Below, piece by piece: positions 1 through 45,992 of a stretch of 64,000 nt of DNA. A program made the position numbers and the translations under genes. The stretch comes from Medakamo hakoo (Eukaryota > Chlorophyta > Trebouxiophyceae > Coccomyxaceae). The DNA is taken from contig CP089454.1 in assembly GCA_026636295.1 (NCBI GenBank), forward strand, positions 558,001 to 622,000. Reading direction: 5' to 3'. Under the pieces are notes generated by a model. That model worked only from the letters and a program-made list of their open reading frames with translations. It did no database searches and had not been told where the DNA came from. Positions within the stretch are counted from its first letter, which is position 1; each line of letters starts with the position of its first letter.

Positions 1-2
1 AG

Positions 3-359
3 TCCGGCGCGTCCACGCCCTTCACGTCCCCGGGCTCCAACCCGTCGGCTGCAGGCGACTCCGTCTACGACGACGCGGACGACGGCACGCTCGGCGGCGG
101 CGGCGGCGGCGGGCACGTGGACGAGGAGGCGCTGCTGGTCGACCCGCACGCCGCGTTTGTCCTGCCGCGCCGCCTGTTGACGGACGCGGCCCGCCACTAC
201 GTCCAAGCTCCCCGGCCCTACCACTCCGCCGCGCCTGGTGTGTCCCTGCTGGACCGCATCGAAGCCTGCTGCCGCGGGTCGGTCGCGCTGCCGCCGGCGC
301 TGCGGTCCCGGCCGGACTTTGCGTTTTTGCTCGGGACGGCCGCGGCGGGGCGGCGGTGA
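3..359 (+). CDS. 3' end of an unidentified gene (partial)
   Basis: An open frame enters from the left edge and runs 118 codons to a TGA at 357-359. The first part is Ser/Pro/Gly-rich, with an acidic patch and a seven-Gly run (about residues 14-37). A better-ordered tail follows, rich in Leu, Arg and Ala, that looks like a folded C-terminus. I do not recognise the family. The next gene (Ski8-like) converges on it, with about 190 bp between the two stops. Codon use is as GC-rich as its neighbours. The 5' part lies outside the window, so neither start nor domain content can be judged. Confidence 0.55.
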   Translation, partial: SGASTPFTSPGSNPSAAGDSVYDDADDGTLGGGGGGGHVDEEALLVDPHAAFVLPRRLLTDAARHYVQAPRPYHSAAPGVSLLDRIEACCRGSVALPPALRSRPDFAFLLGTAAAGRR

Positions 360-549
360 AAAAGCGAGAGAGGGGGATGGGGTGGGGTGGGGAGGGGGAG
401 GTTGTGTGTGTGTGTTTCTTCTTCGGCGTGGGCGCGTGGGAGAGGCTGTGCTCGCACAGGGCGTGCGTGTGACCCGAGAAACGAGCGTTGATACGGAAAC
501 AAACCAACACGAAAAAAAAAACGCGCACAAAACAGCCCTACACGCCCTC

Positions 550-1874
550 TCACCCGCCCCCGCTGTACACCAGCACGGACTTGTCGTCCGACACGGCCGC
601 CAGCCGTGCCCCGGCCGGATCCCATGCCACGCCCCACACCTGGTCGGCCGCATCCCTGCACACCTGCAGGGCGGAACCGCGGGACCGCAAGTCCCACGCC
701 CGCACGGACGCGTCGGCCGAGCACGTCGCCAGGTGGGCGCCGCCCGGGTGCGGCGCGACGCCCAACACCCACGACTCGTGGCCGGACAGGGCGTCGACGA
801 GCGTGCCGCCCTCCACGTCGTACAGGTGGACCAGCATGTCATCGCAGCCCGTGACCAGCGTCCGGCCGTCGGGCGCCCAGGCCAGGGTGCGCACGGGCTT
901 GAAGTGCCCGGGGAGCGAGTGGAGGAGCGCGCCCGTCCCGGCGTCGAAGACGGCCACGCCGCCGTCCATGGACCCGCACGCCAGGCGGCGGCCGTCCGGG
1001 GAGTAGGCCACGGACAGGACAAACCGGTCCGGGCGGCGCGGCTGGGCAGCGCCGGACGTGGTGGCGGCCGCGGCCGCGGCGTCGGCGGCGTCTCCGCCGT
1101 CGGCGCCTTCGGCTTCCGGCAGTAAAAATTCCGCCACTTTCTCCGCGTCGTCCGTCGACCAAATTACCACCCGGTTGGACGCGCCGCCCGCCGCTGCGAG
1201 CAACACGTCATCCCCACGCTGCTGGGCGGCGGGCGGGGCGAACGTGATCTGCCACGTCTCGCCGGGCGGGGTTTCGATGACGGCCTTGGTGCTGGTGTGG
1301 ATGGATGGAGTCGGAGCGGGGTGGGTGGGTGAGGGCGGCCGTCAGGGGGAGAAAGACGGGCCGTCGCCGAGCGAGCCGGCCTTCTGTCCATCTCCACTCC
1401 ATTTGCCCAGGCGTGCGCCGATGCCTGCACTTCCCTGCAGACCCGTGATCGTGGCCAGGCACGCTCGTCCTGGCCCCGCGTTCCGCGCGCACTTTCTCCA
1501 CCCCATCGCCATCGCCCAGAACCGCAACAAAACAAAAACACTCACGTCGCGTCCGCCAGGCTCCACACGCGGACAAAGGAGTCCAGGGAAGCCGACGCGC
1601 CGTACGTGCCACTGCCGTCCACGGCCACGGACACGGCTCCCAGCGTGTGGCCGACGTACGTGTGCAGCGGCTCGAGCGGGGCGGGCGCGGCGTCGGCCGC
1701 GCTCGCACCGTCACCTCCGCCGCCCGCGGCGGGGGGCCGCCACACTTTGACCGACTCGTCGACCGAGCCTGTGATCAGGTCGCCGCCATGGGGGCCGGTC
1801 CCAGGCACCCAGGCGCAGCACCAGACCGCGTCGTCGTGCGCGTCGTCGACCTTGACCGTGCGCGTCAGGCGCAT
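550..1874 (-). CDS. SKI8: Ski8/WDR61/VIP3-type WD40 repeat protein
   Basis: Exons on the minus strand are 1874-1546 and 1291-550. The intron (1545-1292) is GTGAGT...CAG in phase 2, and the joined frame gives 356 aa. WD40 blades are plain: one early repeat reads HDDAVWCCAWVPG...SVDESVKVW, and later ones read SVAYSPDGRRLACGSMDGGVAVFD, TLAWAPDGRTLVTGCDD, HESWVLGVAPHPGG and WGVAWDPAGARLAAVSDDKSV. Length, repeat order and the C-terminal blade fit Ski8 (human WDR61, plant VIP3). That protein scaffolds the cytoplasmic SKI RNA-decay complex and also sits in the Paf1 transcription complex. An Ala-rich insert near the exon 2 start is lineage-specific. Another seven-blade WD40 protein cannot be fully excluded. 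Confidence 0.75.
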
Positions 1875-2121
1875 TTTTTTGTGCCAGCGGCGAGGAGCGG
1901 GTTGCAGAAGCTTCGGCGGGGGGAGAGGGGTGCAGGTGTCGGGCTAGGCGGCGAGAGTGGGGCGCGGTCGCGTGCCCGGGAAGCGCCCGAAGATGATGGA
2001 CGAAACACAATAGGAGTCTGGCCTGCAGGAGAGAGAGAGTGGGGCGGACAGGGACTGCGCTCATTCGCCGACGTGAGCGCGCTCGTTTCGCGTTCCTCCT
2101 CTCTCTCGCACACGTGCAGCC

Positions 2122-2764
2122 ATGGCCACGGCCGGCACGTCCGCGCCGCCGGCCCCTCAGCCACCCAACGACGCCGTGTACGGTGAGAGCCGAGGCCGCG
2201 GGCCTGGGAGCGAGAGGCGCGCGTGCGCGCCTTCCGCAAAAAAAAACAAAGCAAAACAACTCGGCACGATGCGCTTCCTCACCACCTCCGTCCACACCTA
2301 CAAAAACAGGCTCGTCCGACGGGTCCTTCCGTGTCGAGATCACGCACTGGCATGGCGTCGCATCCTGGACGTGGGGTGCGGGAGACGATGTGTGCGGCAT
2401 CTGCCGAGCGCCTTACGACGGCGCGCCGCCGGAAGCGAGGGGCCCCGGCGACGACGCGCCGGTCGTGTGGGGCGCGTGCGGCCACGCCTTCCACATCCAG
2501 TGCATCACGCGGTGGTTGCAGGGCCAGTCCCAGGCCGATGCACGGTGTCCGTACTGCCGGCGGGTGTGGGAGTTTAAAGCCGCGGACGAAGAAGGCGGCA
2601 GTGGCGGAGGGGTCGAAGACGGCGGTGGCGAGGGCAGCCCTTCGCCCGGCCGGCCACCGGCGCGGCGGGCGCGGCCGGACCCGGAAGCTGCAGTGGCCGC
2701 GGCGGCGGCGGCGGCGGCTGCGGCGGCGGCGGAAGCCGTGGAGGACATGGAGGCGGAAGGGTAG
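2122..2764 (+). CDS. APC11: Anaphase-promoting complex RING-H2 subunit APC11
   Basis: Exons 2122-2182 and 2310-2764 join through a GTGAG...ACAG intron in phase 1 to give 171 aa. The core (about residues 28-95) follows the Apc11 pattern: ITHWHGVASWTW, CGIC, PGDDAPVVWG, CGHAFHIQC, then CPYCRRVWEF. This is the catalytic RING subunit of the APC/C ubiquitin ligase that drives mitotic exit. The core is flanked by an N-terminal Pro/Ala leader and a long Gly/Ala-rich acidic tail that the family (about 85 aa) usually lacks. The eight RING-H2 ligands are present, but the extra Cys/His positions forming the third zinc site in animal Apc11 are replaced by non-ligands. The PGDD and WEF signatures make this Apc11 rather than Rbx1. 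Confidence 0.88.
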
Positions 2765-2866
2765 GGGCACGCTGTGTAGACGGGGAGGCGAAAACTTTTT
2801 TCAGAGGGTTGGTTCATGTGCCTGGAGGGGGGGGGGGGTCGGCGGCATTGCTCCGAACGAAAAGCC

Positions 2867-4522
2867 ATGGCCCGCGCAGGCGACGCAGCCGCCGCCGGGC
2901 TGGTCCTCCTCCTGCTGGCCTGGCTGGGTGTCGGCCTCAGCCACCCGCTGGCGCCGGCGGTGGAAGCCCTGGACGCCGCCGCGCGGGTCCTCCTCCTGCG
3001 CACGACCCCGCTCGCCCGCCTGGCCGACCTCGCGGCCGCGACGGACGCCGACGGACGCACCGCCATCACCCGTCCTTACTTGAGCCCGGCCCACGCCCGG
3101 GCGGCGGCCTTGCTGGCACGCTGGATGAGGGATGCGGGGCTGGGCGATGTGTGGATCGACGGCGTGGGCAACGTGCGTGGCCGAGCTGGTGGCACTCCAC
3201 CCACCACCTCCACCCTCCTCCTCGGCTCGCATTTCGACTCCGTGCCCGACGCGGGCCGGTTTGACGGGTGCCTGGGCTTAGTGGCAGCTCTGGCCGCTGT
3301 GGAAGCCTCCAAAACAGCCGCGGCCGCACTCGGAACCCCCTGGCCCCCGCCCGGGAAAGCGGTGGAGGTCGTGGCGTTTGCGGATGAGGAAGGCAGCCGG
3401 TTCGGCACGACGTTCCTCGGGTCGGCTGCCCTGGCGGGGACGCTGGCGGGGTCGGGCGCCCTGGACACTGCAGTGGATGCGGGCGGCGTGAGTTTAGGGG
3501 AGGCGATCGCGGCCGCGGCGGCGGAGCGGGCGGCCGGCGGCGTGCTGGCGGGCGTGCCGGCTCCAGCCTGGGATGGCGTCGCGGCCGCGCCGCCCGCGTC
3601 CCGCCGGGCCGCCGTCGCGGCCGCCGTCGCGGCCGCGGCTCTTGGCGCGTCCAACGCCTCGTACGTCGAAGCCCACATGGAACAAGGCCCGGTTTTGGAG
3701 CGCCTGCACGCCCGGGCGGCTGCCGTCTCTGCCATTGCGGCCCAGGCGCGTTTCACCGTGGAGGTTGTCGGCACGGCCGGCCACGCGGGCACGGTGCCGA
3801 TGCGGGACCGGGCGGACGCCGGTGCTGCTGCTGCAGAGGCTGTGTCTGCCATTGAGCGCGTCTGCCGGCAGGCTGGCCGGGCGCGGGACTGGGCGCGGCC
3901 GGTGCGGGCGGCCGCCGCGGCGCTTGTCGAGCGGACGCACGCCCACCGCCTGGCCGCCTGGCTCGCGGCCGCCGCCCTCGTCCCGCCTCCACCCTCGCCC
4001 GCGTTGGTGTGCACGGTGGGCACGATGACCTTTCGTCCCGGCGCGCCGAACGTCATCCCCGGCAGCGCGGCCTTTTCCGTCGACGTCCGCGACAGCACCG
4101 ACGCGGGGCGGGATGGCGCGGCGGCCGCCGCGCGCGCCGCCGTCGCTGCGCTGTGCGCGCGGCGACGCGTGGCCTGCACCTGGACCCGGACGCACGCGTC
4201 ATCGGCGGTGGCTGCTGATGAACGGTTGACACGGCTGGTGGAGGGCGGCGCGGCCGCGGCGGCGGGCCTGATGGCGGAGGTGGGCGGCGGGGAGGGCGGA
4301 CCCGCGGGTCCGCCAGCCGCACCGCTCGCGCGGCGGCGCTTGGTCTCCGGCGCCGGCCACGACGCGGCGGCCTTGGCGGCGGGCCGCATTCCCTGGGCCA
4401 TGGTGTTTGTGCGTGACAGGGGCGGCGTGTCGCACACCCCACTGGAAGACGTGCGGGACGGGGACGTGGGCGCGGCTGGGGCGGTGGTGTGGGGCGCACT
4501 GGAAGGGTGGTTGCATGGATAG
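2867..4522 (+). CDS. AAH: Allantoate amidohydrolase (M20 family), secretory
   Basis: A single exon of 551 aa, started at the ATG that opens a clear signal peptide (MARAGD..., hydrophobic residues 9-24). An M20-family metallohydrolase core follows. GSHFDSVPDAGRFDGCLG (about 120-137) carries the first metal-binding His/Asp pair. FADEEGSRFG (about 171-180) carries the acidic catalytic pair. EAHMEQGPVLE and AGHAGTVPM fit the dimerisation and lid part. The motif set is that of allantoate amidohydrolase, N-carbamoyl-amino-acid hydrolase and ureidoglycolate amidohydrolase. The plant-type signal peptide favours ER-located allantoate breakdown in purine nitrogen recycling. Which ureide is the substrate cannot be settled from sequence alone. 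The start lies about 100 bp after the APC11 stop, on the same strand. Confidence 0.82.
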   Translation: MARAGDAAAAGLVLLLLAWLGVGLSHPLAPAVEALDAAARVLLLRTTPLARLADLAAATDADGRTAITRPYLSPAHARAAALLARWMRDAGLGDVWIDGVGNVRGRAGGTPPTTSTLLLGSHFDSVPDAGRFDGCLGLVAALAAVEASKTAAAALGTPWPPPGKAVEVVAFADEEGSRFGTTFLGSAALAGTLAGSGALDTAVDAGGVSLGEAIAAAAAERAAGGVLAGVPAPAWDGVAAAPPASRRAAVAAAVAAAALGASNASYVEAHMEQGPVLERLHARAAAVSAIAAQARFTVEVVGTAGHAGTVPMRDRADAGAAAAEAVSAIERVCRQAGRARDWARPVRAAAAALVERTHAHRLAAWLAAAALVPPPPSPALVCTVGTMTFRPGAPNVIPGSAAFSVDVRDSTDAGRDGAAAAARAAVAALCARRRVACTWTRTHASSAVAADERLTRLVEGGAAAAAGLMAEVGGGEGGPAGPPAAPLARRRLVSGAGHDAAALAAGRIPWAMVFVRDRGGVSHTPLEDVRDGDVGAAGAVVWGALEGWLHG

Positions 4523-4844
4523 AGAGGCATAGAGCACCCATTGCCACGATTTTTCTCCACCGCGCCACCGGCGAAAGCGCGCCCGCACTGGCCGGCCGCA
4601 ACCCACCGTGTGGCTGACACGCCAGAGACCCCGCCCCGCCTGTCAGTTCTAGTAAAAACAAGATGGACAGCCCGCCACGGCGCGCGTGAAAGGAGAGCGA
4701 CACAGCGAGAAACGCGCCGTCGCTTCCATCGGCTCGCGCCCCTCGCGGTCCGGGCGGGACCGGCACAGCACGGGCATCTGGACTCCCAGCCTGTGCGGCG
4801 TTGACGCCTGAGCCTGAGCTGAGCAGGGGTCGCACATCGCTCCG
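4523..4844. promoter_or_regulatory. Intergenic region upstream of ATE1
   Basis: About 320 bp between the AAH stop and the ATE1 start, clearly less GC-rich than the genes. It holds a CTAGTAAAA motif at about 4649-4657 that recurs upstream of UTP18 and, inverted, upstream of the S4 gene. No other conserved element or ORF stands out. Confidence 0.4.
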
Positions 4845-7370
4845 ATGCCGGACACGACGGTGGAGCGAGGCGGCGGCGGCGGCACCGCGACAGCGGTCGC
4901 GCCGCCACCGCCCGCGCCTCGCCCCCAACCTCACCCTCCACCGCCGTCCACCCTGTCCATCGTCGACAACGTCCACTCCTACACCTCCCACTGCGGCTAC
5001 TGCGAGACGCCTGGAGAAACCTCGGCGTCCGTGGGCATGTGGGCGCACGCGCTGTCGGCGGCGACCTACAATGCCCTGGTCGACGCGGGGTGGCGCCGGT
5101 CTGGCCGCTGGGTCTACCGCCCGCTGCCCACGGCGGCCGTGCGGGGGGGTGGGGGCGGGGGAGGTGGCGCCGACGCGTCCTCCACGCGCCCGCCCTGCTG
5201 CGTCGCCCACACCATCCGCCTGGACGTGCGGCACGCGGCGCGGAGCCGGGCCCAGCGCCGGTGCCTCGCGCGGGTGGCGGCCTTTCTGGACGGTGGGCCC
5301 TTGCCACCGCCGACGGCGGCGGCGGCGCCAGCAGCCCGGCCGGCGAGCGCTGCCAACGGCGCATCGCCGGCCACGGCAGGCGCGGCGTGGGCGGCCGGCC
5401 CCCCGCCGGGACGCGACGGCCCGCCCGCGCTGGTCCTTCCGCTGCCCCGCGCGGCCGCGACGGACGCCGGCCCGCCGTCGTCGCCGCCGCGCTGCCCGTC
5501 CCCGCGCGGCGTGTCGCCCGTCGTGGGCGGTGGCGGCCCGCTGCGGCCGCCGCCCGCCTTTGCGTGGCCGCCCACGACCCGGCGCCGGGCGACGGAGGAG
5601 GGCGGCGGCGCTGCTGCCGCGCCGGCCGCTGCCCCGCCGCCGCCACCCACCGGCGCCGAGGGCGGCGGCCCCGTCGACGCGGCCGCGCTGGCGGCCCGCC
5701 TGCTGCGGGAGGCCGTCCCTGCGACTGGAGCCGACCGCAAGCGCAAGGCGGGCGACCTGCCCGTGCGGTCGCCGGGCGGCAGCCCGGCGCCGGGTGCAAG
5801 CCCAGCCCGCGCGGCCGTCGCGGCCGCGCTGGCGTCCGCCGCAGCGGCGCTGTTGAGCGGCTCGGCCGACCCGTCGGCCTTGCCCGTGGCCCCACCCAAG
5901 CCCGGACCTGCCCGGCGGCTGCCCCCCACCGTCGCGCTCACCTCCCCGGCCGGCCTGGTGCTGGCCGCGCGCCTCAAGCGTGCCAGCGGCAGCGCGCACA
6001 AGCCGCCCGCAGCCCTGGCGACCGCTCTGGCGACCGCCCTCACCGGCGGTGGAGGCTTGCCGCCCGGCTGGTCTGTCAGGGCTGAGGGCGGCCACCTCAA
6101 CTTCCACGCGCCGTCGGCGGAGGCGGCGGCGGCGGAGCGGGGTGGTGGTGGGGGCCTGCCCGCGCCACCGACGACGACGTCCACCGCCCAGCCGCCGCTG
6201 CGCGCTGTGCGGTCCCGCCGGTCGTGGCCATCGCTAGCCGACGCGGCGGCGGTGCCGCCCTCGTCTGTCTCGCCCCCACGGCGCGCGCCCGCGGCGGCGG
6301 CGGCAGGCCCGCCCGCCCCACCGGTCACCACCGACCCGCCCCGGCGCCGGTCGCTCGAAATCCGCACCGTCCCCGTCCCCTGCGCCACGCCCGCGGAAAC
6401 GGACGCCCTGATCGCCGCCGAATTCCCGTTGTTCGTCCGGTACCAGACGGCCCAGCACGGCGACGACCCGGCGGGCTTGAGCACCGCGGCGTTCAGGAGG
6501 TTCCTCGTCGACACCCCGCTGCTGGCGGGCGGCGGCGGCGACGACGGCCGACCAGGCTCGCTGCCCTACGGCTCCGCCCACCAGCAGTACTGGCTGGACG
6601 GCTCGTTGATTGCCGTGGGCGTCGTCGACGTCCTGCCCCGCGGCCTGTCGTCCGTATACTTCTTCTGGGAGCCGGGGCTGGGCGGGCTGGGCCTCGGGCG
6701 GTGGTCGGCCCTGCAGGAGATCGAGTGGGTGAAGGACGCCGCGGCCGCCCACCCGGCCGTCGCCGACGCCTTCCGGTTCTACTACATGGGCTACTACATC
6801 CACACCTGCCCCAAAATGCGGTACAAAGCCGAATTCGCGCCGTCGGAGCTGCTGGCGGTCGCGGACGGGGAAGTGGCCGGGCATGGTGAGGGCGGTGGCG
6901 ATGGTGGTGGTGGTGGTGGTGGAAGCGGGCCGGCCGACCCGGCTGCCTGGCCGCCGCCGCCGCTGGTGTGGGTGCCCGCGGCTGACGGGGTGCGCCTACT
7001 GGACGCGGACGCGCGCGCGGACTTGCGCGTGCTGGCGGGTGCCGGTGGTCGTGCGAGTGGTGGTGGAGGTGGTGGTGGCACGCCGCCCCCACCTCCGCCC
7101 ACGCTCCCGTTTGCCGGCCCTCCGCTCGCCCCACTGCCCGCCGTGCTGCAAACCCTGGTCTTTGCGGGGAGCGAGCGTGGAGGCGGCAACGACGCGGCCG
7201 CGGCTGCCGGCCGGCCGCGCGCGCCTACGACCGTCACGCGCCTAGGCCGCCTGGCCGCGTCGGGCGGCCTGTCCCGCCCTGCGCTGGCGGGCCTGGTGGA
7301 CCGGCTGCGGCCCTGGGTGGCGGCGATTGTCGCGGCGGGTGTCCAGGACGAGGTCGTGGTGCTTGTCTGA
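4845..7370 (+). CDS. ATE1: Arginyl-tRNA--protein transferase ATE1
   Basis: A single exon of 841 aa. The N-terminal ATE domain has the Cys cluster HCGYC (about residues 49-53) and CC (118-119), followed by HTIRLDV, as in plant ATE1; the segment DAGWRRSGRWVYRP is almost canonical. The C-terminal catalytic half (about 505-680) includes FPLFVRYQ, HQQYWLDGSLIAVGVVDVLP, SSVYFFWEP and FYYMGYYIHTCPKMRYKAEFAPSELL. ATE1 adds arginine from Arg-tRNA to proteins with N-terminal Asp, Glu or oxidised Cys, marking them for N-degron turnover. The two conserved halves are separated by a long Ala/Pro/Gly-rich linker (about 150-480), which makes the protein longer than the usual 500-630 aa. A second low-complexity insert follows the catalytic block. 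Confidence 0.93.
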   Translation: MPDTTVERGGGGGTATAVAPPPPAPRPQPHPPPPSTLSIVDNVHSYTSHCGYCETPGETSASVGMWAHALSAATYNALVDAGWRRSGRWVYRPLPTAAVRGGGGGGGGADASSTRPPCCVAHTIRLDVRHAARSRAQRRCLARVAAFLDGGPLPPPTAAAAPAARPASAANGASPATAGAAWAAGPPPGRDGPPALVLPLPRAAATDAGPPSSPPRCPSPRGVSPVVGGGGPLRPPPAFAWPPTTRRRATEEGGGAAAAPAAAPPPPPTGAEGGGPVDAAALAARLLREAVPATGADRKRKAGDLPVRSPGGSPAPGASPARAAVAAALASAAAALLSGSADPSALPVAPPKPGPARRLPPTVALTSPAGLVLAARLKRASGSAHKPPAALATALATALTGGGGLPPGWSVRAEGGHLNFHAPSAEAAAAERGGGGGLPAPPTTTSTAQPPLRAVRSRRSWPSLADAAAVPPSSVSPPRRAPAAAAAGPPAPPVTTDPPRRRSLEIRTVPVPCATPAETDALIAAEFPLFVRYQTAQHGDDPAGLSTAAFRRFLVDTPLLAGGGGDDGRPGSLPYGSAHQQYWLDGSLIAVGVVDVLPRGLSSVYFFWEPGLGGLGLGRWSALQEIEWVKDAAAAHPAVADAFRFYYMGYYIHTCPKMRYKAEFAPSELLAVADGEVAGHGEGGGDGGGGGGGSGPADPAAWPPPPLVWVPAADGVRLLDADARADLRVLAGAGGRASGGGGGGGTPPPPPPTLPFAGPPLAPLPAVLQTLVFAGSERGGGNDAAAAAGRPRAPTTVTRLGRLAASGGLSRPALAGLVDRLRPWVAAIVAAGVQDEVVVLV

Positions 7371-11318: not shown

Positions 11319-11841
11319 GCGGCGGCGGGGTGTGTGAAGAGAGAGAGAGACAGAGGGAGCCACACACGCACACGCCCCATCCCATGCGCGCCCTCCTGGC
11401 CCACCACCCGCCGCGCCCGCGCTCGCCGGCCCGGAGCCCGGCCCAGCGTCGTCCCCAGCCGTGCGCGCTCGTCGTGGCCAGCGCTGCGCGCACGCGCCGC
11501 TCGCCCATTTCCGCCGGCGCGCCCCACACCCTCCGTCCGCGACCCGCCCAGGCTCGGCTGGTGCCGGCCCGCCGGGATCCCGGCCTGAGTGAGGAGGCAA
11601 GGGCCGGCGGGACAAGGTGCACGTCCCGGCGCGCCCCTCCCACCTCTCCCAACGCTCGCCGCGAATGCCGCGCCGCCGCACGTTGTGCCTCTCCGCCGAG
11701 CCGTCGGCACACCTTACTGCGTCTCCTCCGCCGGCGGCCAAGCCGGCGTGGCGGGTACCGCCCATTCGGTGCGTCGGACTGGAGAGGGAGAGGGTGGGCC
11801 GTGGCGTGGCGCGCCTCCCCCGCCGAAAAAAGACTGCACCG

Positions 11842-11848
11842 TAAGCCC
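11842..11848 (+). promoter_or_regulatory. snRNA upstream element (TAAGCCC), U2 copy A
   Basis: TAAGCCC starts 71 nt before the inferred U2 start. The same motif sits at the same distance upstream of U2 copy B and U5, and a close variant precedes U4. Confidence 0.6.
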
Positions 11849-11912
11849 TTTTCTGCGTGCGTTGCGTCGCGACTACTCACTTGAACCGCTGACCGCCTGT
11901 CGGTTGCGGGTA

Positions 11913-12035
11913 ACTATCTCGCCTTTCTGGCTAAGATCAAGTTGTAGTAAACTGTTCTGTATCGTCTGACAACGATACCGCGCACGCATGTCGTGCGCGT
12001 AACTGTCAGTCCAATTTCTCCAGGGGCGGCGGGCA
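11913..12035 (+). pseudogene. U2 snRNA gene copy A, truncated at the 3' end
   Basis: The first 123 nt are identical to U2 copy B: stem I (CTCGCC...GGCTAAGATCAAG), the branch-site-pairing GTAGTA, stem IIa, stem IIb and the Sm site AATTTCTC. After GGGCAC the sequence changes abruptly to a partial copy of the isomerase gene's 3' end, so stem-loops III and IV (the SL IV that binds U2-B'') are missing. The upstream element and promoter region are intact. It may be transcribed, but a normal U2 snRNP from it is unlikely. Confidence 0.8.
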
Positions 12036-12046
12036 CGCTGGACTGG

Positions 12047-12110
12047 CGGCTGGACGCGGGAGCCGTGCGCCGGGTGGACTGTTGAGCAGCGGGGTGTGGC
12101 GGCGCGCGTG
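12047..12110 (+). repeat. Partial duplication of the isomerase gene 3' end
   Basis: The stretch around 12052-12100 resembles 11281-11340, the last codons and 3' flank of the isomerase gene. Both contain GGGTGGACTGTTGAGC, followed by a GTGTGTGAAGA-type tail. It begins just after U2 copy A breaks off. Confidence 0.75.
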
Positions 12111-12259
12111 TGTGAAGAAGAGACAGAGGAGGGTGGTGGTCACACCCACCCACCACCTGCGGCACTCAAGACGCCTCCCTCTTACTGCCAGGACACGGCA
12201 CGTTCACTCGCTCTACACACACACACGCTCTCCACGCCACCCCGCCCTCCCTCTCCCAC

Positions 12260-13189
12260 TCACTGCTGTTTCGGCGGCCGGGCCGCCTTTTCCACGACGC
12301 CCGACACCCCAAACCGGCCGCGCAGCTGGGCCAGCACGTCCTCGACCTGCACGCCCGCCGCCCGCAGCAGGACGACGGCGTGGTACGCCAGGTCGGCCGC
12401 CTCGGACGCGACGCGGTCCGGTCCCTCGTCGTCCTCCAGGGCGCGCGCCAGTTCGTCCGCCTCCTCCCGCACCTTGGAGACCAGCAGCGCCGGGTTGGCC
12501 AGCAGCCGCGCGGTCCACGACGGCTTGGCGCCGTCGTCCGGGGGCGGCGCGGTCGCCCGTTCCGCGACGGTGCGCTCCAGCGCCAGCAGGGTGGGCAGCG
12601 CCGCGCCCGCCGGACCAGTCGCCGTGCCCACGCCCCCGCCGGCCGCCGGGTACGCCGCCGAAAACCAGCAGGTCGGCGCGCCAGTGTGGCAGGCCGGGCC
12701 GATGGGGTCGCACAGAAACACGACGGAATCGCCGTCACAGTCAGCGTGCGCGGACAGGACGCGCAGGTAGTGGCCAGAAGTCTCGCCCTTGCACCACCGC
12801 TCGGCCCGGGAGCGGGAGTAGAAGGTGGCCAGCCCCGTTTGCAGGGACTCGCTCACCCCCGCCCGGTCGGCAAACGCCTGCATCAAGATTTCGCCCGTGT
12901 CCGCGTGCTGGGCGATGGCGACCAGCAGCCCGTCCCGCTTGTCGAACTTGAGGGTGTCCAGGAACGCCGACAGGCCTGGGACGTCGGCCTCTGGGCGCAG
13001 CGGTGGCGGCGGGCCGCCTGGCGGCGGGACAATGGTCGCGGCCAGTGGTGGTGGGAGGCGGAGGAGGTGGCAGCCGCGGCGGCGGCGGTGAGGAAACGGC
13101 GCGCGGGCGAGCGGCGTGCGCCTTGCACCACTCGACACGCGTGCCAGGGGTAGCCTGGATGGTAGAGCGTGCGGCGGCGGCGGCGTCAT
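12260..13189 (-). CDS. HISN2: HISN2: phosphoribosyl-AMP cyclohydrolase / phosphoribosyl-ATP pyrophosphohydrolase
   Basis: A single exon of 309 aa, started at the first real ATG in frame. The first ~60 residues are Arg/Pro/Ala/Ser-rich with almost no acids, typical of a plastid transit peptide. The HisI part follows: LKFDKRDGLLVAIAQH, then TFYSRSRAERWCKGETSGH, DCDGDSVVFLCDP and CHTG, including the zinc cysteines. The HisE part has SWTARLLANPALLVSKVREEADELARALE and SEAADLAYHAVVLL. The fused enzyme performs the second and third steps of histidine synthesis. Domain order HisI-HisE matches the bifunctional plant enzyme. The gene is flanked on both sides by U2-bearing repeats, so the U2 duplication spans or brackets it. 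Confidence 0.93.
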   Translation of the reverse strand: MTPPPPHALPSRLPLARVSSGARRTPLARAPFPHRRRRGCHLLRLPPPLAATIVPPPGGPPPPLRPEADVPGLSAFLDTLKFDKRDGLLVAIAQHADTGEILMQAFADRAGVSESLQTGLATFYSRSRAERWCKGETSGHYLRVLSAHADCDGDSVVFLCDPIGPACHTGAPTCWFSAAYPAAGGGVGTATGPAGAALPTLLALERTVAERATAPPPDDGAKPSWTARLLANPALLVSKVREEADELARALEDDEGPDRVASEAADLAYHAVVLLRAAGVQVEDVLAQLRGRFGVSGVVEKAARPPKQQ

Positions 13190-13354
13190 TGTTGTGGGAG
13201 GGCGCACGCGGGGGTGTGGCCGACGACGGGGCGCGACCAAAGGTCAATCGGCTGCCCACTTCGGGAACGGGAGTGTGGAGAGACCTGGGTTTCGGCCGAG
13301 TGTTCATCACATCTCTCTCGGGGCGTGTGCGCGCGTGGACTGCCAACCCGGCCC

Positions 13355-14025
13355 GCCACACACGCACACGCTCCATCCATGCGCCCTCCTGGCCCACCAC
13401 CCGCCGCGCCCGCGCTCGCCGGCCCGGAGCCCGGCCCAGCGTCGTCCCCAGCCGTGCGCGCTCGTCGTGGCCAGCGCTGCGCGCACGCGCCGCTCGCCCA
13501 TTTCCGCCGGCGCGCCCCACACCCTCCGTCCGCGACCCGCCCAGGCTCGGCTGGTGCCGGCCTGCCGTCCAGGCCTGAGTGAGGCGGTGGGAGGGGCGCG
13601 CCGGGACGTGCGCCTTGTCCCGCCGGCCCTTGCCTTGGCGCACGCTCGCCGCGAATGCCGCGCCGCCGCACGTTGTGCCTCTCCGCCGAGCCGTCGGCAC
13701 ACCTTACTGCGTCTCCTCCGCCGGCGGCCAAGCCGGCGTGGCGGGTACCGCCCATTCGGTGCGTCGGACTGGAGAGGGAGAGGGTGGGCCGTGGCGTGGC
13801 GCGCCTCCCCCGCCGAAAAAAGACTGCACCGTAAGCCCTTTTCTGCGTGCGTTGCGTCGCGACTACTCACTTGAACCGCTGACCGCCTGTCGGTTGCGGG
13901 TAACTATCTCGCCTTTCTGGCTAAGATCAAGTTGTAGTAAACTGTTCTGTATCGTCTGACAACGATACCGCGCACGCATGTCGTGCGCGTAACTGTCAGT
14001 CCAATTTCTCCAGGGGCGGCGGGCA
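13355..14025 (+). repeat. U2-bearing direct repeat, copy B
   Basis: Near-identical to 11359-12035 over most of its length. The exception is 13586-13635, which reads as the reverse complement of 11594-11644 with only about two mismatches. Past 14025 copy B continues into the complete U2 3' half, so B looks ancestral or better preserved. Confidence 0.9.
13832..13838 (+). promoter_or_regulatory. snRNA upstream element (TAAGCCC), U2 copy B
   Basis: TAAGCCC starts 71 nt before the inferred U2 start at 13903. Position resembles the plant USE (about -70), but the sequence differs from the plant consensus. No clear TATA box is seen at -30. Confidence 0.65.
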
Positions 14026-14099
14026 CCAGGCGGAGCTTGCTCCGCCCGCCCGCCGCGCGCGTGCTGAGGGCATGGCACTCCCCGCCCTCGGCGCGCACC
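13903..14099 (+). ncRNA. U2: U2 spliceosomal snRNA (complete copy B)
   Basis: About 197 nt. Landmarks in order are stem I with CTCGCC/GGCTAAGA, then ATCAAGTTGTAGTAAACTG containing the GUAGUA that pairs with the intron branch site, then stem IIa GTATCGT/ACGATAC. Stem IIb GCGCACG/CGTGCGC comes next, followed by the Sm site AATTTCTC at 14003-14010, stem-loop III with the conserved GGAGCTTGCTCC, and stem-loop IV with GAGGGC/GCCCTC closing a loop ATGGCACTCC. The 3' end CGGCGCGCACC resembles the usual U2 terminus. U2 base-pairs with the branch site and with U6 in the spliceosome core. Exact ends are inferred to within a few bases. Confidence 0.95.
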
Positions 14100-14126
14100 C
14101 GCTCTCCCCCCACCCTCCTTCCGAAA

Positions 14127-14462
14127 CACATGAACACACACAGAGACACTCGGGGTGAGGTGGCTGGGTGGGGTGGGTGCATGGTGTGGGGTGTGGTGGG
14201 CGGGGTGTGGGGGTGGGCGGGGCAGGCGGGCCCGCACACACACACAGCCACGCTGGGCAAGCGGCAACAAATCGACCGCCGCTGAGTATCGACCGCCCCA
14301 CATGAACACGCACACACGCACACATTCGGGGTGTGGTGCCTGGGTGTGGTGGGTGGGGTGTGGTGGGCGGGGTGTGACGGGGTGGGCGGGCCCGCGGGCA
14401 CACAGCCACGCCGGGCACACAGCCACTCTGGGCAAGCGGCAAAAAATCGACCGCCGCTGAAC
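14127..14462. repeat. Two tandem degenerate units of about 172 bp
   Basis: Units start at about 14127 and 14299, each opening with CACATGAAC. Each has a GTGGG-rich tract, then CACACAGCCACG, and closes with GCGGCAA(C/A)AAATCGACCGCCGC, which can fold as a short hairpin. The repeat lies between the U2 terminus and the U5 promoter region. No coding signal. Confidence 0.7.
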
Positions 14463-14606
14463 CGTCTTCGGCCATCTGACTTGTTTCGCCCAATTAAGAC
14501 GGTGACTTAGAATCTCAGGTACACGCGAAAATGGACCGCAGGACGTGAAACGCTCTGACAGCTCCGCCATCATCGATGTAGTAAACATTGCACCGCTCAT
14601 AAGCCC
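14463..14606. other. AT-richer island before U5
   Basis: Markedly less GC-rich than its surroundings. A 7-bp stem CCGTCTT/AAGACGG spans about 14462-14502. On the minus strand, GATGATGG followed some 60 nt later by CCTGAG resembles boxes C and D of a snoRNA, but a terminal stem is weak. It also holds the U5 upstream element at its right end. Identity unknown. Confidence 0.35.
14600..14606 (+). promoter_or_regulatory. snRNA upstream element (TAAGCCC), left U5
   Basis: TAAGCCC starts 71 nt before the inferred U5 start at 14671. It lies just outside the inverted repeat, so the right-hand U5 copy lacks it. Confidence 0.65.
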
Positions 14607-14670
14607 TTGCATTTCGCCTCTCGTCCACCGCCAGGCCATGGTTCCAACAACTGCGCCTGCTGCGCGGCCA

Positions 14671-14783
14671 AGCGGAGCCACGCCCGAGCACAGACACGGT
14701 CGTCGCCTTTTACTACGACCGTCTGGCGGGGCGTGGCACTCACATCCGCATCCACCAATTTTTAAAGTCGTGTAATACGACGC
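14671..14783 (+). ncRNA. U5: U5 spliceosomal snRNA, left copy
   Basis: The invariant U5 loop 1, CGCCTTTTACT, is at 14704-14714. It is closed by GGTCGT/ACGACC, and the outer stem is GCCACGCCC/GGGCGTGGC. An Sm site AATTTTTAA follows at 14757-14765, then a 3' hairpin GTCGTGTAATACGAC. This order and a length of about 113 nt are those of U5, which holds exon ends in the spliceosome and is part of the U4/U6.U5 tri-snRNP. The TAAGCCC element lies 71 nt upstream. Ends are inferred. Confidence 0.93.
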
Positions 14784-15188
14784 CCTCCCTCTCTAGAAAC
14801 TCTGAACACACACTTGTGGTGGGAAAAAAATGGGAGAGACGGAACAAGTGGGGTGAGTGGCTCCGCCAGTCCGTTCCATCCGTCCCTGCACACCGCGCGG
14901 GCCTGGGCCCTCACGATGGGATTGGCAGCGGGGCGGGTGGGCGTGCGTGCGTGAAGAGTCGGGCGGCGGGTGGGCGCAGGGTCAGGGAAGAGACGCGAGA
15001 GTTAGAGACACGGAGCGAACGGGCTGTTGCATTTTTGTGTCACGGCAAGACCGGCCACACGCCTTTCTCTCCCCCCCACACACGAGCGGCGTGCACACAC
15101 CAGCGCTGGCGAGCAAACGGCGGGGCCGTGCGCGGCAGGGCCAGGTCGGACGTGCTGTGTGCGTGTGTTCGAACGTTTTGAGGGGGGT

Positions 15189-15332
15189 GCCGGACGAGGG
15201 TCCGACTGCAGAAATTTCCTGTGCCGCTCCGAAGAGCAGGCGCAGGGGGGAAATCTTGATAGTTTTCAAACAGCAAGTGCACACATCGGTTAGGACCTCA
15301 TTTGTCGTGCAATCGCCCCAAGCGCAAGTGAT
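15189..15332 (-). ncRNA. U4: U4 spliceosomal snRNA, left copy
   Basis: About 144 nt, identical to the right copy at 17088-17231. It begins ATCACTTGCGC, which can pair with the GCGCAAG of U6 (stem II). It continues with the k-turn AAATGAGG...CCGA that binds the 15.5K/Snu13 protein, then TTGCTGTTTGAAAACT (stem I region). A central hairpin with a TTCG loop, an Sm site AAATTTCT and the terminal stem GTCGGAC/GTCCGGC follow. U4 chaperones U6 until spliceosome activation. It is transcribed toward U5. Confidence 0.93.
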
Positions 15333-15397
15333 AAGGTCAGAAACTTCGCGCGCCCGCGCACTATAGCCGCTGGTTGACAATAAGGACAACGTGTTGT

Positions 15398-15403
15398 GGC
15401 TTA
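15398..15403 (-). promoter_or_regulatory. snRNA upstream element (TAAGCC variant), left U4
   Basis: TAAGCCACAACACG on the minus strand starts 71 nt before the U4 start at 15332. The inverted repeat ends at the first base of this element, so both U4 copies retain it. Confidence 0.6.
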
Positions 15404-15925
15404 TGGGCGCACACAAAAAAAAGAGTTTGGTTGGGAGACAAACTCACAGCTTGGGAGCTCCGGGTTTCGCGTCTCACTCCCGCACACTTGACGGCACCGC
15501 CCCGACGGGCGCGCCGCGTCGGGCGCTGCGATGCACAACGCAGACCTCGCCGCGGCATGAGCTCCGACCTTGTCCAAAGGATTGCGCAGGCGCCGCCGCC
15601 TGCGCAGCGGCGCCAGACTGCAGCCCGCGACGCCGATGCCCGTTTCGTCGTCGCGCACCCGCCTCCTCGCACCCTCACCTCATTCCCATGACGTCCGCCT
15701 GGGCGCGGAGTGACTCCGCGTGCCGGACGAGGTGAGCTGGATGGAGTGGACGGGCTTGGAAAGTCGACGCAGCGATCGTGTCGTCCGCCCTGGCGCTCCC
15801 CCCACGTCCTTCAATTTTTTCTGTGCTAGTTTTCATGGAGTGAAACCTGGGATTTTGTTTTGGTTTTCTCCAGTCCGTCTCCCCAACCGTAACAAAACAT
15901 CAAAACGCAAGTATTGCCTGCCCTC
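15404..15925. other. Left part of the inverted-repeat spacer
   Basis: About 520 bp without a convincing gene. It has a GCGCAGGCG/CGCCTGCGC hairpin near 15588-15609 and an AT-rich stretch at 15815-15925 that probably serves as 3' flank of the adjoining minus-strand gene. A 44-codon ORF at 15557 has no supporting feature. Confidence 0.45.
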
Positions 15926-16710
15926 CTATAAAAACATGAAGCTTTCGACAGCAAACAAGTCGGCCAGCTCGTCAAAGGTGGGGTAGACAGACACCCGATT
16001 GTCCTGCCCAGGCGCGCGCGCCGCCACCCACGCCTTTGCCGCGGCCTCCACCGCCTTGCGCACACCGTCCGGCTCGGCGATCTGAACGACCAGGAGAATC
16101 CGCCACAAACCCGTGCGTGTGGTCCGTGGCCACTCATCCGGTTTGGGAGTGGCGTCCAGGGCCATCCACACCCGGTCAGACAGTGGGACGTGAGTTTGGT
16201 CGCACGGCGGCACGCCGCCACTCCCGCAGGCCGAGGCCACTTTGGCCGCGCCCACGTCCGGCCCACCGCCACCACCGCCTCCCTCCGCCTCTTCTTCAGC
16301 CAGGTGCTCCATGTACGCCTTTTCCAACTTCTGGAGCTCCAGTCCGGCAGCAGCCAGCTCCATTTCAGCTTCAGCAGCACAGGTAGCGCACTCGCGCCGC
16401 AAGGCTAGACGAATGTCGCGGCGCTGCTCCGGCGTGGCCGTGTCGGGGTCAAAGCCGACATGAGTCATCTCTGGAGCCGTGGGCGGGCTGCCGTCATGCA
16501 TGGTGGCTTCGCCATCGGACGACCTTTTTAGGGGGTGTGTTATTGGGACGAGGTTCAACGCCCAATGCCGCGCAAGTCGAGGCAAGTGCCTCGAGTCGCC
16601 CGGCATTTTCTCGCCTCGAACCCGCGGCATGCGCGGCACACGCTCTCTCACCCAGACGCGGACGCCTCGTCCTGGTCGAGCTCCGCAACATCGCGTGGGT
16701 TGGAGGCCAT
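15926..16710 (-). CDS. Unidentified 218-aa protein inside the inverted-repeat spacer
   Basis: Exons 16710-16652 and 16523-15926 join through GTGAGAG...AAAAAG (phase 2) into a frame of exactly 219 codons with stop. The N-terminus MASNPRDVAELDQDEASASG is acidic and Ser-rich. A helical stretch follows with regularly spaced Leu, Ala and Glu (QRRDIRLALRRECATCAAEAEMELAAAGLELQ, shown here only as a pattern), likely a coiled coil, at about residues 48-85. Then come a poly-Gly break and a more globular C-terminal half (about 125-218) with WRILLVVQIAEPDG and VSVYPTFDELADLFAVESF. I do not recognise the family. A second copy of exon 1 lies outside the inverted repeat (17821-17943), where the rest of the gene is absent. 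Confidence 0.6.
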
Positions 16711-16772
16711 GGTATTCCCCCCTTGTTTTGGTGGCCGCTGTTCCTTCGTTTCTTGTTCACTGTGAAAAAGCT
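16650..16772 (-). repeat. Exon-1 direct repeat, inner copy
   Basis: About 122 bp covering exon 1 of the 218-aa gene and its 5' flank, about 90% matched by 17821-17943. The outer copy encodes MASNPRDVEEHGQDEASASG and then diverges at the splice donor. Confidence 0.8.
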
Positions 16773-16861
16773 TCCCCACACAGTCGTACTCCCTGGCCAG
16801 TCTCTCTCTCTCTGGCCAGTCTCTCTCCCTTGCCCAGTCTCTTTCTCTCTCTCGCTTCTCT

Positions 16862-16922
16862 CCCGGCCCGCCCGGATCCCTCGCCTGCTTGAGCACGAGG
16901 CAGTCACACCTCAGGTACCTGG
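16862..16922 (-). pseudogene. U1 snRNA 5' fragment
   Basis: About 60 nt matching the 5' part of the U1 gene at 18262-18099: the 5' arm (here altered to GGTACCTG), the 5' side of helix H, stem-loop I and the first side of stem-loop II. The match ends in a CT/GA-rich tract. Upstream similarity continues to about 16975. The later stems and Sm site are absent, so it is a relic. Confidence 0.75.
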
Positions 16923-17016
16923 CGCGGCCGGGGTGGCGAACGCACCAACAGGAGGTCGGAGGGCGCGGCAAGGACGGGGGTTGGGTGGTCAACCAGCGCG
17001 TATGGGGGGTGGTCCC

Positions 17017-17022
17017 TAAGCC
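17017..17022 (+). promoter_or_regulatory. snRNA upstream element (TAAGCC variant), right U4
   Basis: TAAGCCACAACACG starts 71 nt before the right U4 start at 17088. Confidence 0.6.
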
Positions 17023-17087
17023 ACAACACGTTGTCCTTATTGTCAACCAGCGGCTATAGTGCGCGGGCGCGCGAAGTTTCTGACCTT

Positions 17088-17231
17088 ATCACTTGCGCTT
17101 GGGGCGATTGCACGACAAATGAGGTCCTAACCGATGTGTGCACTTGCTGTTTGAAAACTATCAAGATTTCCCCCCTGCGCCTGCTCTTCGGAGCGGCACA
17201 GGAAATTTCTGCAGTCGGACCCTCGTCCGGC
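17088..17231 (+). ncRNA. U4: U4 spliceosomal snRNA, right copy
   Basis: Identical to the left copy on the other strand. Plus-strand landmarks are ATCACTTGCGC at the 5' end, the k-turn AAATGAGG...CCGA near 17115-17130, GTTTGAAAACT, the Sm site AAATTTCT at 17203-17210 and the terminal stem ending GTCCGGC. The upstream element is retained, so this copy should be as active as the left one. Confidence 0.93.
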
Positions 17232-17636
17232 ACCCCCCTCAAAACGTTCGAACACACGCACACAGCACGTCCGACCTGGCCCTGCCGCGCACGGCCCCGC
17301 CGTTTGCTCGCCAGCGCTGGTGTGTGCACGCCGCTCGTGTGTGGGGGGGAGAGAAAGGCGTGTGGCCGGTCTTGCCGTGACACAAAAATGCAACAGCCCG
17401 TTCGCTCCGTGTCTCTAACTCTCGCGTCTCTTCCCTGACCCTGCGCCCACCCGCCGCCCGACTCTTCACGCACGCACGCCCACCCGCCCCGCTGCCAATC
17501 CCATCGTGAGGGCCCAGGCCCGCGCGGTGTGCAGGGACGGATGGAACGGACTGGCGGAGCCACTCACCCCACTTGTTCCGTCTCTCCCATTTTTTTCCCA
17601 CCACAAGTGTGTGTTCAGAGTTTCTAGAGAGGGAGG

Positions 17637-17749
17637 GCGTCGTATTACACGACTTTAAAAATTGGTGGATGCGGATGTGAGTGCCACGCCCCGCCAGACG
17701 GTCGTAGTAAAAGGCGACGACCGTGTCTGTGCTCGGGCGTGGCTCCGCT
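17637..17749 (-). ncRNA. U5: U5 spliceosomal snRNA, right copy
   Basis: Identical in sequence to the left U5, with loop 1 at 17716-17706 on the minus strand. Only about 64 bp of its upstream flank is shared with the left copy: the repeat ends at 17813, and the TAAGCCC element is replaced by unrelated sequence. The RNA gene is whole, but its promoter may be weak or dead. Confidence 0.9.
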
Positions 17750-17820
17750 TGGCCGCGCAGCAGGCGCAGTTGTTGGAACCATGGCCTGGCGGTGGACGAG
17801 AGGCGAAATGCAAACCGCCC

Positions 17821-17943
17821 TCACCCAGACGCGGACGCCTCGTCCTGGCCGTGCTCCTCAACATCGCGTGGGTTGGAGGCCATGATCCCTCTCCCTTTTT
17901 TGTTGGCCGCTGTTTCTTCGTTTCTTCTTTACTGTGAAAAAGC
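17821..17943 (-). repeat. Exon-1 direct repeat, outer copy (gene fragment)
   Basis: Second copy of the first exon and 5' flank of the 218-aa gene. No downstream exon follows, because the sequence runs straight into the right U5 flank. With the U1 gene 160 bp further on, it mirrors the order of the inner exon 1 and the U1 fragment. Confidence 0.75.
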
Positions 17944-18098
17944 CCGTTTCCCCTTCCAGGCCTGCGCCCAGCTCCCCTCCTCGCCCACCCAACACCCCGC
18001 CCCACCCAGGCACGCGCGCGCTGTCCCACCACCGCCAATAAACGTCTCTCCTCTCCAAGCACGTGTGTGTGTTCACAGTCTTTGAAAGGTGGGGGGGC

Positions 18099-18262
18099 GG
18101 ACGGGCGCGCGGACGCGACACCGTCCCTGAAAAAATTGAAGCTGGCTCTCTGGCACTTGACCAGGAGACAGGCGGGCCGGCGTGCGGTGAGTGCGGTGCA
18201 GACCGGCCCGCCCGGACCCCTCGCCTGCTTGAGCGCGAGGCAGTCACAGCTCAGGTAAGTGG
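18099..18262 (-). ncRNA. U1: U1 spliceosomal snRNA
   Basis: About 164 nt, the usual U1 length. ACTTACCTG (18260-18252) is the 5' arm that pairs with splice donors. Helix H is GAGCTG/CAGCTT. Stem-loop I is CCTCGC/GCGAGG with loop GCTCAAGCAG, agreeing at 7 of 10 positions with the U1-70K-binding loop. Stem-loop II is a long GGGCGGGCCGG/CCGGCCCGCC stem with TGCAC in the loop (U1A side). Stem-loop III is CTGG/CCAG. The Sm site AATTTTTTC is at 18137-18129, and stem-loop IV is GGACGG/CCGTCC. The order and four-way junction fit U1. The 5' dinucleotide reads CC rather than AU, so the exact start is uncertain. Confidence 0.9.
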
Positions 18263-18328
18263 CGCGACCGAGATGGCGACCTCACCAACAGGAGGTCGGA
18301 GGGCGCGGCAAGGGCAAGGGTGGGGCGT

Positions 18329-18342
18329 CATGTTGTGACTTG
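18329..18342 (-). promoter_or_regulatory. Possible snRNA upstream element, U1
   Basis: CAAGTCACAACATG matches the U4 element TAAGCCACAACACG at 11 of 14 positions. It lies 80 nt before the inferred U1 start rather than 71; either the spacing differs or U1 begins about 9 nt earlier than assumed. Confidence 0.4.
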
Positions 18343-45000: not shown

Positions 45001-45539
45001 GCCGCCGTTGACGAATTGCAGGCGGCCCGAGGAGACGAGGGACCGGACGGACGACCGGGTGGCCTCACCCTGTTCGGCCCACCACCGGGCGAAGAAGGCG
45101 ACCTCGCCGTAGATGAACGTGCGGTCGGGGTTGGCCTGGAGCGCGGCGACGACGGCGTCCAGGACGAACTGGACGCCGGCGACCTGGTGGCCTTGGTTCG
45201 ACCCGAAATAGTACTGGTCGACGGTTTTGAGCCAGCCCGCGTCGTCATGGGTGTGGGGGACGATGTGGACGTTGATGACGCCGGGCCGGCTGTGCGAGGG
45301 GAGGAGGCAGGAGGCAGGAGGGAGGAGGGGAGGGGAGGTCGTGAGTGGTGGGAGCGCGCGCTGTGCCGCCTTCTCGTTTCGTCCCTCACCCACAACGCAC
45401 GCCTCCCACCCACTCACCGTCCAGCCGTCGTGTTGTACGAGCTGGGTACGCACTGGCGGCCGGAAAAGGCGGCGGAGGCGGGCGCAGCCAGCAGGGCGGC
45501 CGCGGCCAGGCAGAGGCATTGGTGCGCGAGCGATGGCAT
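42067..45539 (-). CDS. MAN2B1: Lysosomal/vacuolar-type alpha-mannosidase (GH38), copy 1
   Basis: Exons 45539-45418 and 45289-42067 (GTGAGTGG...ACAG, phase 2) give 1114 aa. Signal peptide in the first ~24 residues (MPSLAHQCLCLAAAALLAAP), then YNTTAGR. The catalytic GH38 domain has INVHIVPHTHDDAGWLKTVDQYY (zinc His/Asp) and GWQIDPFGHSATQ with the nucleophile Asp, plus FVNGGWVQHDEA. The mid and C-terminal beta domains are complete (HQHDAVSGTSQQHV; NETACGCRECGCGG). It removes alpha-mannose from N-glycans in an acidic compartment. The paralogue at 53376-57073 has its first intron at the same codon position. Confidence 0.93.
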
Positions 45540-45992
45540 GGTGTGGTTGAGGGGCGTCGCCGCGGGTGAAGCAGACGGGGACGGGAAGTGCGGTGGCTTT
45601 GTGCGTGGACACCGGTGTGTGTGCACAGCACGGCTGCAAGGTGGGCTCGCGCGCGCCTCCACGCCCTCCCCAGGGCCGTCGGAAGATTTGCTGGAGAAGG
45701 AAGGTTTGGACCGACCCTCTCCCCCCCTTTTTTTGTCACTCTCCCTATACCCGTCCGTCCGGGAAACAACACACCCTCTCGAAAATGGCGGCCGGCGACC
45801 GGTGCACCGCGCCTGCCGGCCCAGGACCGTCCTCCGCCCGACCTCAAAAACGGACCAAGCGGGCATCGTACGCCCAGCGCAAGCGGGTGCGTTTCTCTGC
45901 GAGTCTAGTAAAAGCGCTGCGCAGCCGCCGCCCGCGAGCTCCTCGCCCCCCGCCCGCACACAATCCCTCACTCCCTGTCCACCGCTCACCTC
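45540..45992. promoter_or_regulatory. Divergent promoter of mannosidase 1 and UTP18
   Basis: About 450 bp between divergent starts. A CTAGTAAAA motif lies at about 45903-45911, some 85 bp before the UTP18 ATG. A T-run and CCTATACCC near 45730-45755 are the only other low-GC elements. No gene seen. Confidence 0.4.

Follow-up and report, generated by a model that had tools for sequence, protein, structure and literature searches.

Spliceosomal RNA genes in the window

We examined a 64,000-nucleotide stretch of the chlorophyte Medakamo hakoo (GenBank assembly GCA_026636295.1, contig CP089454.1, positions 558,001 to 622,000 of the forward strand), here called the window, in which a cluster of spliceosomal small nuclear RNA (snRNA) genes had been proposed at window positions 11842-18342. 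The original prediction, made from the sequence, listed a full and a truncated U2, two U5, two U4, a U1 and a U1 fragment within 6.5 kb. The whole window was scanned by cmscan with all Rfam models, at the gathering cutoffs first and then at an E-value threshold, and these identities and coordinates were borne out. Six matches scored above the gathering cutoff in the 64 kb, every one inside the locus (two U2, two U4 and two U5), while U1 was found at the E-value threshold only. Four of the five spliceosomal RNA classes (U1, U2, U4 and U5) have covariance-model matches within these 6.5 kb. U6, which had been reported as not seen, gave no match at E<=1 anywhere in the window, nor did any minor-spliceosome snRNA. 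Weak Rfam matches to mir-1281, mir-253, Guanidine-III, EBv-sisRNA-1 and snoU82P were far below cutoff and were dismissed. The snRNA copies are:

11910-12036, plus strand: truncated U2, first 127 nucleotides, likely pseudogene (Rfam match 11910-12082, 50.5 bits)
13900-14103, plus strand: full U2 snRNA (Rfam RF00004, 93.0 bits against a gathering cutoff of 46, model positions 1-192)
14671-14781, plus strand: full U5 snRNA (RF00020, 48.1 bits against a gathering cutoff of 40)
15191-15331, minus strand: full U4 snRNA (RF00015, 68.7 bits against a gathering cutoff of 46)
16863-16922, minus strand: U1 5′ fragment, likely pseudogene (homologous upstream DNA to about 16985)
17089-17229, plus strand: second U4, identical to the first (Rfam 68.7 bits)
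17639-17749, minus strand: second U5, RNA identical to the first, without upstream TAAGCC (Rfam 48.1 bits)
18099-18262, minus strand: full U1 snRNA (RF00003, 58.1 bits, E=7.6e-12 window-wide, model positions 1-166)

A Sm-like site is present in all four RNAs. In U2 it is AATTTCT at nucleotide 104, and the GUAGUA motif is also present. The U5 loop CGCCUUUUACU is seen in the covariance alignment, and U4 has the k-turn stem-loop in addition to its above-cutoff score. U1 spans the full model, begins with ACUUACCUG and folds with the four-way junction. The predicted folds of U2 (z -5.88), U5 (z -6.07) and U1 (z -3.07) were each more stable than 200 of 200 shuffled sequences. Judged by these sequence features, the locus is a genuine cluster of nuclear snRNA genes from the classes U1, U2, U4 and U5, and a moderately unusual one.

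The order along the locus is truncated U2 (+), U2 (+), U5 (+) converging with U4 (-), a protein gene designated gene X (-), the U1 fragment (-), the second U4 (+) converging with the second U5 (-), a copy of the start of gene X (-), and U1 (-). With U5 and U4 convergent and both strands carrying genes, the cluster cannot be a single transcription unit. Three of the copies, namely the truncated U2, the U1 fragment and, probably, the second U5, have the look of broken duplicates, which leaves a likely working set of one or two U4 genes and one gene each for U2, U5 and U1.

Upstream and 3′ elements

Counted from the Rfam 5′ end, the hexamer TAAGCC stands at -68 (U2), -71 (U5) and -72 (U4). On both strands of the 64 kb it occurs seven times, and five of these are upstream of an snRNA copy (three independent genes plus duplicates). 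A second element, AAA[CG]N2-4[TC]GAACACAC, occurs six times in the window, each time just 3′ of an snRNA copy and in all four classes, with its AAA 12-21 nucleotides past the RNA. Its 8-base core GAACACAC has seven occurrences, one of them outside the snRNA 3′ elements. The first of these elements resembles a proximal sequence element (PSE) and the second a 3′ box, and they are listed under those names:

11842-11847, plus strand: PSE-like core TAAGCC of truncated U2
13832-13837, plus strand: PSE-like core TAAGCC of U2 (-68)
14600-14605, plus strand: PSE-like core TAAGCC of U5 (-71)
15398-15403, minus strand: PSE-like core TAAGCC of U4 (-72)
17017-17022, plus strand: TAAGCC of second U4, at the repeat edge, preceding base differing
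18331-18341, minus strand: weak U1 upstream element AAGTCACAACA, similar to AAGCCACAACA of U4
14124-14139, plus strand: 3′ box-like element of U2
14797-14811, plus strand: 3′ box-like element of U5
15163-15178, minus strand: 3′ box-like element of U4
17242-17257, plus strand: 3′ box-like element of second U4
17609-17623, minus strand: 3′ box-like element of second U5
18067-18083, minus strand: 3′ box-like element of U1

The bounds first given for the cluster match upstream elements to within one base, 11842 that of the first U2 and 18342 that of U1.

When the downstream regions of the four classes were shuffled, a common 8-mer arose in none of 5,000 sets and a common string of 7 nucleotides in one. 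Among 50,000 quadruples drawn at random elsewhere in the window, a single one had an 8-mer of any kind in common at similar positions. For the three upstream regions with TAAGCC, an equally rare 6-mer at similar positions was shared by none of 50,000 random triples, and any 6-mer by 331. Of these two candidate signals, the 3′ element has the firmer support.

Known consensus elements did not match. In the four genes the plant upstream sequence element (USE) has 3-4 mismatches at best and TATAAA 2-4; the plant 3′ box CAN3-10AGTNNAA was found in none of the four, nor was the metazoan 3′ box GTTTN0-3AAARNNAGA. TAAGCC and the downstream element look like a lineage-specific PSE and 3′ box.

Duplicated and damaged copies

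The duplication suggested in the original prediction was recovered by alignment, as an inverted U5/U4 repeat, copies of a gene X/U1 segment, and the truncated U2. The arms of the inverted repeat are:

14607-15406: arm 1, 800 nucleotides, holding convergent U5 and U4
17014-17813: arm 2

The arms differ at one of 800 positions, near an edge, and the upstream element of the second U5 was lost at the repeat boundary. Direct copies of the gene X/U1 segment flank arm 2, one on either side. In the two blocks where these copies can be aligned, identity is 89.8% (127 columns) and 91.0% (111 columns); these figures of about 90% describe the blocks alone, as 265 of 364 columns are identical in a global alignment and the stretch between the blocks has no real similarity. 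The two copies are damaged in complementary ways: where gene X is whole, U1 is missing its body and 3′ element, and where U1 is whole, only the start of gene X is present. The 91.0% block compares the U1 fragment with the 5′ part of U1, upstream DNA included. The fragment also lacks the upstream element, and its 5′-splice-site-pairing end reads AGGTACCTG instead of ACTTACCTG.

The truncated U2 keeps the Sm-like site and lacks stem-loops III and IV. Beyond 12036 its DNA is like the 3′ end of the neighboring NUDIX (IDI-like) gene, and the Rfam match has been stretched over that DNA. Taken together, the alignments indicate that the extra copies derive from segmental rearrangement, several of them having been left without a promoter element or 3′ end.

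If a single rearrangement is assumed, arms so much more alike than their flanks point to a later event: the near-perfect arms beside flanks diverged by about 10% suggest gene conversion between the arms. Conversion would be unneeded if the inverted U5/U4 repeat had instead arisen through faulty assembly or by a separate insertion in very recent times, a possibility to be taken seriously, given how unusual a single mismatch in 800 is beside copies about 90% alike, and yet one that we do not favor. At each end arm 2 joins unique flanking DNA through a junction of its own, and its position precisely between the two gene X/U1 copies is what a single template-switching event would leave.

Some further observations concern this DNA. 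Gene X (15926-16710, minus strand) encodes about 200 residues with no Pfam match; next to U1, at 17820-17943 (minus strand), its presumed first exon (MASNPRDVAELDQDEASASG) and leader occur a second time. Upstream of the two U2 copies, a 50-bp segment (11595-11644 versus 13586-13635) is inverted between copies that are otherwise nearly identical, a clean microinversion. The pattern of mismatches between these duplicates had been considered as a sign of selection on the truncated U2, and was rejected because the mismatches lie mostly within the microinversion. The G/T-rich DNA downstream of U2 contains a tandem repeat (14127-14285 and 14299-14460, 81% identity).

Probable separate transcription units

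Very probably, as far as sequence can tell, the locus is an snRNA cluster in which each transcription unit has its own signals and which was enlarged by local duplication, inversion and conversion. Every intact gene would form its own transcription unit, in which a PSE-like element with core TAAGCC about 70 nucleotides upstream would recruit the start machinery and the 3′ box-like AAA[CG]N2-4[TC]GAACACAC just past the RNA would direct 3′-end formation. Local duplication, inversion and conversion would then have enlarged the cluster and left the damaged copies. U1, U2, U4 and U5 are usually made by RNA polymerase II, and the intact genes here are presumably transcribed by it as well. The promoter sharing that had been proposed is right only insofar as similar flanking elements accompany every gene, each with a copy to itself, and fails in the sense of one transcription unit, both strands being used. 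Likewise, the proposed coordinated snRNA locus amounts to linkage with common signals rather than demonstrated co-regulation.

Several results weigh against this view of the cluster. The U1 score of 58.1 bits is below the curated Rfam cutoff of 69.5, and its upstream element is weak, with AAGTC at -79 instead of TAAGCC. Over all four upstream regions the longest common string is 4 nucleotides, matched by 2,571 of 5,000 shuffles. With position and rarity ignored, the three-way upstream 6-mer was equaled in 80 of 5,000 shuffles and 1,385 of 20,000 random triples, and without a position limit the downstream 8 nucleotides were equaled in 17 of 20,000 random quadruples; the random background was the rest of the window, which is GC-richer than the locus. 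The fold of U4 alone is unexceptional (z -1.37, 17 of 200 shuffles equally stable), which need not surprise in an RNA whose pairing partner is U6. Other snRNA copies may also lie elsewhere in the genome, beyond the scanned window.

This last point bears on a rival view, in which segmental duplication has left here mainly a graveyard of snRNA pseudogenes and the working genes lie elsewhere in the genome. Damage is clear in the truncated U2, the U1 fragment and the second U5 without upstream element, the U1 and U5 covariance scores are low, and the copy count covers the 64-kb window rather than the whole genome. However, each class has one full-length copy with a Sm-like site and a 3′ element, three of the four with TAAGCC near -70, and such constancy of register among unrelated genes speaks for use; we consider the graveyard very unlikely.

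Comparison with known snRNA loci

The comparisons in this section draw on excerpts of the cited sources. Mixed clusters had been called uncommon, and they are, though there are precedents. In Symbiodinium minutum, all five snRNAs occur in one cluster, with snRNAs at about 70 other places (review, PMC4083563). That cluster, like ours, brings U1, U2, U4 and U5 together in an algal nuclear genome, and differs in including U6, of which the window has none. Candidate flanking elements are defined here, and the host, at 73.3% GC and with few introns, seems to be of another kind. Arabidopsis has seven U1-U4 clusters and one U2-U5 cluster (PMC545797). There too, neighboring genes belong to different polymerase II snRNA classes and have promoter and 3′ elements in common, but a cluster contains only two classes, and the plant USE/TATA and 3′ box consensus sequences are unmatched here.

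Metazoan PSE/3′ box genes processed by Integrator (PMC5079582) are similar in having an upstream element, a 3′ element soon after the RNA and no clear TATA; the element sequences differ, and the metazoan 3′ box consensus is not matched. The 12-nucleotide motif for 3′ processing of Giardia non-coding RNAs (PMC3510501) is likewise a short lineage-specific motif at the 3′ ends of several RNA classes; it was tested by RNA end mapping, whereas ours is a candidate from sequence, in another sequence context. Papers on nucleomorph and Amoebophrya snRNAs had, in their excerpts, no bearing on the cluster. Among the matches listed from the open-licence literature we found no description of haptophyte snRNA genes or promoters.

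If the reading as separate transcription units holds, the locus would supply candidate snRNA promoter and 3′-end signals for the host lineage and add one more kind of alga with a multi-class snRNA cluster. The U5 without upstream element and the U2 without 3′ part would be natural mutants for tests of these signals.

Mixed snRNA arrays turn up elsewhere too, as the content of another contig (L100, positions 1-5648) indicates: it holds U2, U1, 5S rRNA and three histone 3′ stem-loops within 5.6 kb. It is filed as bacterial, and is a eukaryotic, animal-like contaminant with a mixed repeat.

Insertions at the U2 branch-site region

In both U2 copies the branch-site region reads GAUCAAGUUGUAGUAAACUGUUCU, where the Rfam consensus is GAUCAAGUGUAGUAUCUGUUCU. 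One base is inserted on each side of GUAGUA and one U is changed to A, so that in the Rfam alignment the core differs in length from the consensus. The Rfam consensus serves as the canonical reference; four fetched U2 sequences agree with its core, and having been picked by that core as a search pattern, their agreement is not independent and cannot show that the core is invariant.

By RNAfold, GUAGUA exactly fills a 6-nucleotide loop closed by GUU/AAC plus CA/UG with a bulged A. The 24-mer of the window folds at -2.4 kcal/mol versus 0 for the canonical 22-mer, and within the full U2 the three inner pairs have probabilities of 0.73-0.75. The stem energy is 0.0 kcal/mol with the U insertion alone, -0.4 with the A insertion and the changed base, -1.0 with the U-to-A change and no insertions, and -1.9 in the full window form. 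In these models the inserted bases can pair, lengthening the branchpoint-interacting stem-loop.

In human and yeast U2 a branch-site-pairing loop is similarly held by a short flanking stem (PMC13167188, PMC8357632, PMC11482624, cited from excerpts); the window differs in the inserted base on each side and the changed base, giving a Watson-Crick inner stem. Its register is the one called slip-stranded in simulations of human U2, where, in the excerpt, slip-stranded G31:C40 and A30:U41 pairs are described and an idealized fully paired stem limited growth of the branch helix (PMC13167188).

The two extra bases are rather probably neutral drift, or tolerated spacers that pair by chance with no longer stem being maintained. 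Among the 64 possible base choices at the three changed places, nine give a stem at least as stable as that of the window, which leaves selection for pairing a suggestion and not a result, and the 24-mer is unexceptional against shuffles (z -0.67, 39 of 200 equally stable). Introns in the window are present but look few; two are readable by eye in the RPN1 gene (62500-63300, minus strand), where the 5′ sites read GTGCGA and GTGAGG and CTCAC stands about 40 nucleotides ahead of the 3′ site, so that in these two the branch sites look ordinary despite the odd U2. Against chance pairing stands the placement of the changes: one insertion falls on each side of an otherwise kept GUAGUA, and the new bases are able to pair around a loop centered on it.

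The alternative, that a working U2 has altered an "invariant" part through paired insertions that keep and strengthen the branchpoint-interacting stem-loop, is, we think, unlikely. If true, it would be natural covariation evidence for a structure hard to test in this way, its bases hardly varying, and a U2 with a Watson-Crick inner stem would work despite the human U2 simulations suggesting limited branch-helix growth. The double insertion would thus be a natural test of this stem-loop, and is both the most interesting part of the locus and the least tested.

Searches for similar insertions gave little. A 15-nucleotide U2 pattern matched 99 stretches in viral contigs, taken as chance matches; longer patterns, inserted or canonical, matched none there, and with the canonical control also at zero this is little informative. 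In contigs of a collection of prokaryote genomes the inserted pattern had no match and the canonical control matched four stretches on three contaminating contigs, a weak but controlled negative. No insertions beside the U2 GUAGUA were evident among the matches listed from the open-licence literature.

Genomic setting

The window is 73.27% GC. Its open reading frames include a NUDIX protein (IDI-like by inspection), a PRA-CH/PRA-PH (HisIE-type) protein, a WW/FF-domain protein, SPT6 domains, GH38 alpha-mannosidase and the proteasome subunit RPN1, and these matches identify the DNA as eukaryotic and nuclear. The SPT6-like frame is open for 1,987 codons without a stop. Compared with figures in published excerpts, the GC content and sparse introns would fit the haptophyte Diacronema lutheri (73.25% GC, 45% single-exon genes), a resemblance and not an identification; Raphidocelis subcapitata (72% GC, 5.7 introns per gene) was disfavored as a source on account of that long open frame. 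In the PDB the RPN1 gene matches 8amz_Z best, a spinach entry. Two GH38 alpha-mannosidase-like genes (42070-45735 and 53379-55913, both minus strand) lie about 8 kb apart and are apparently a paralogous pair.

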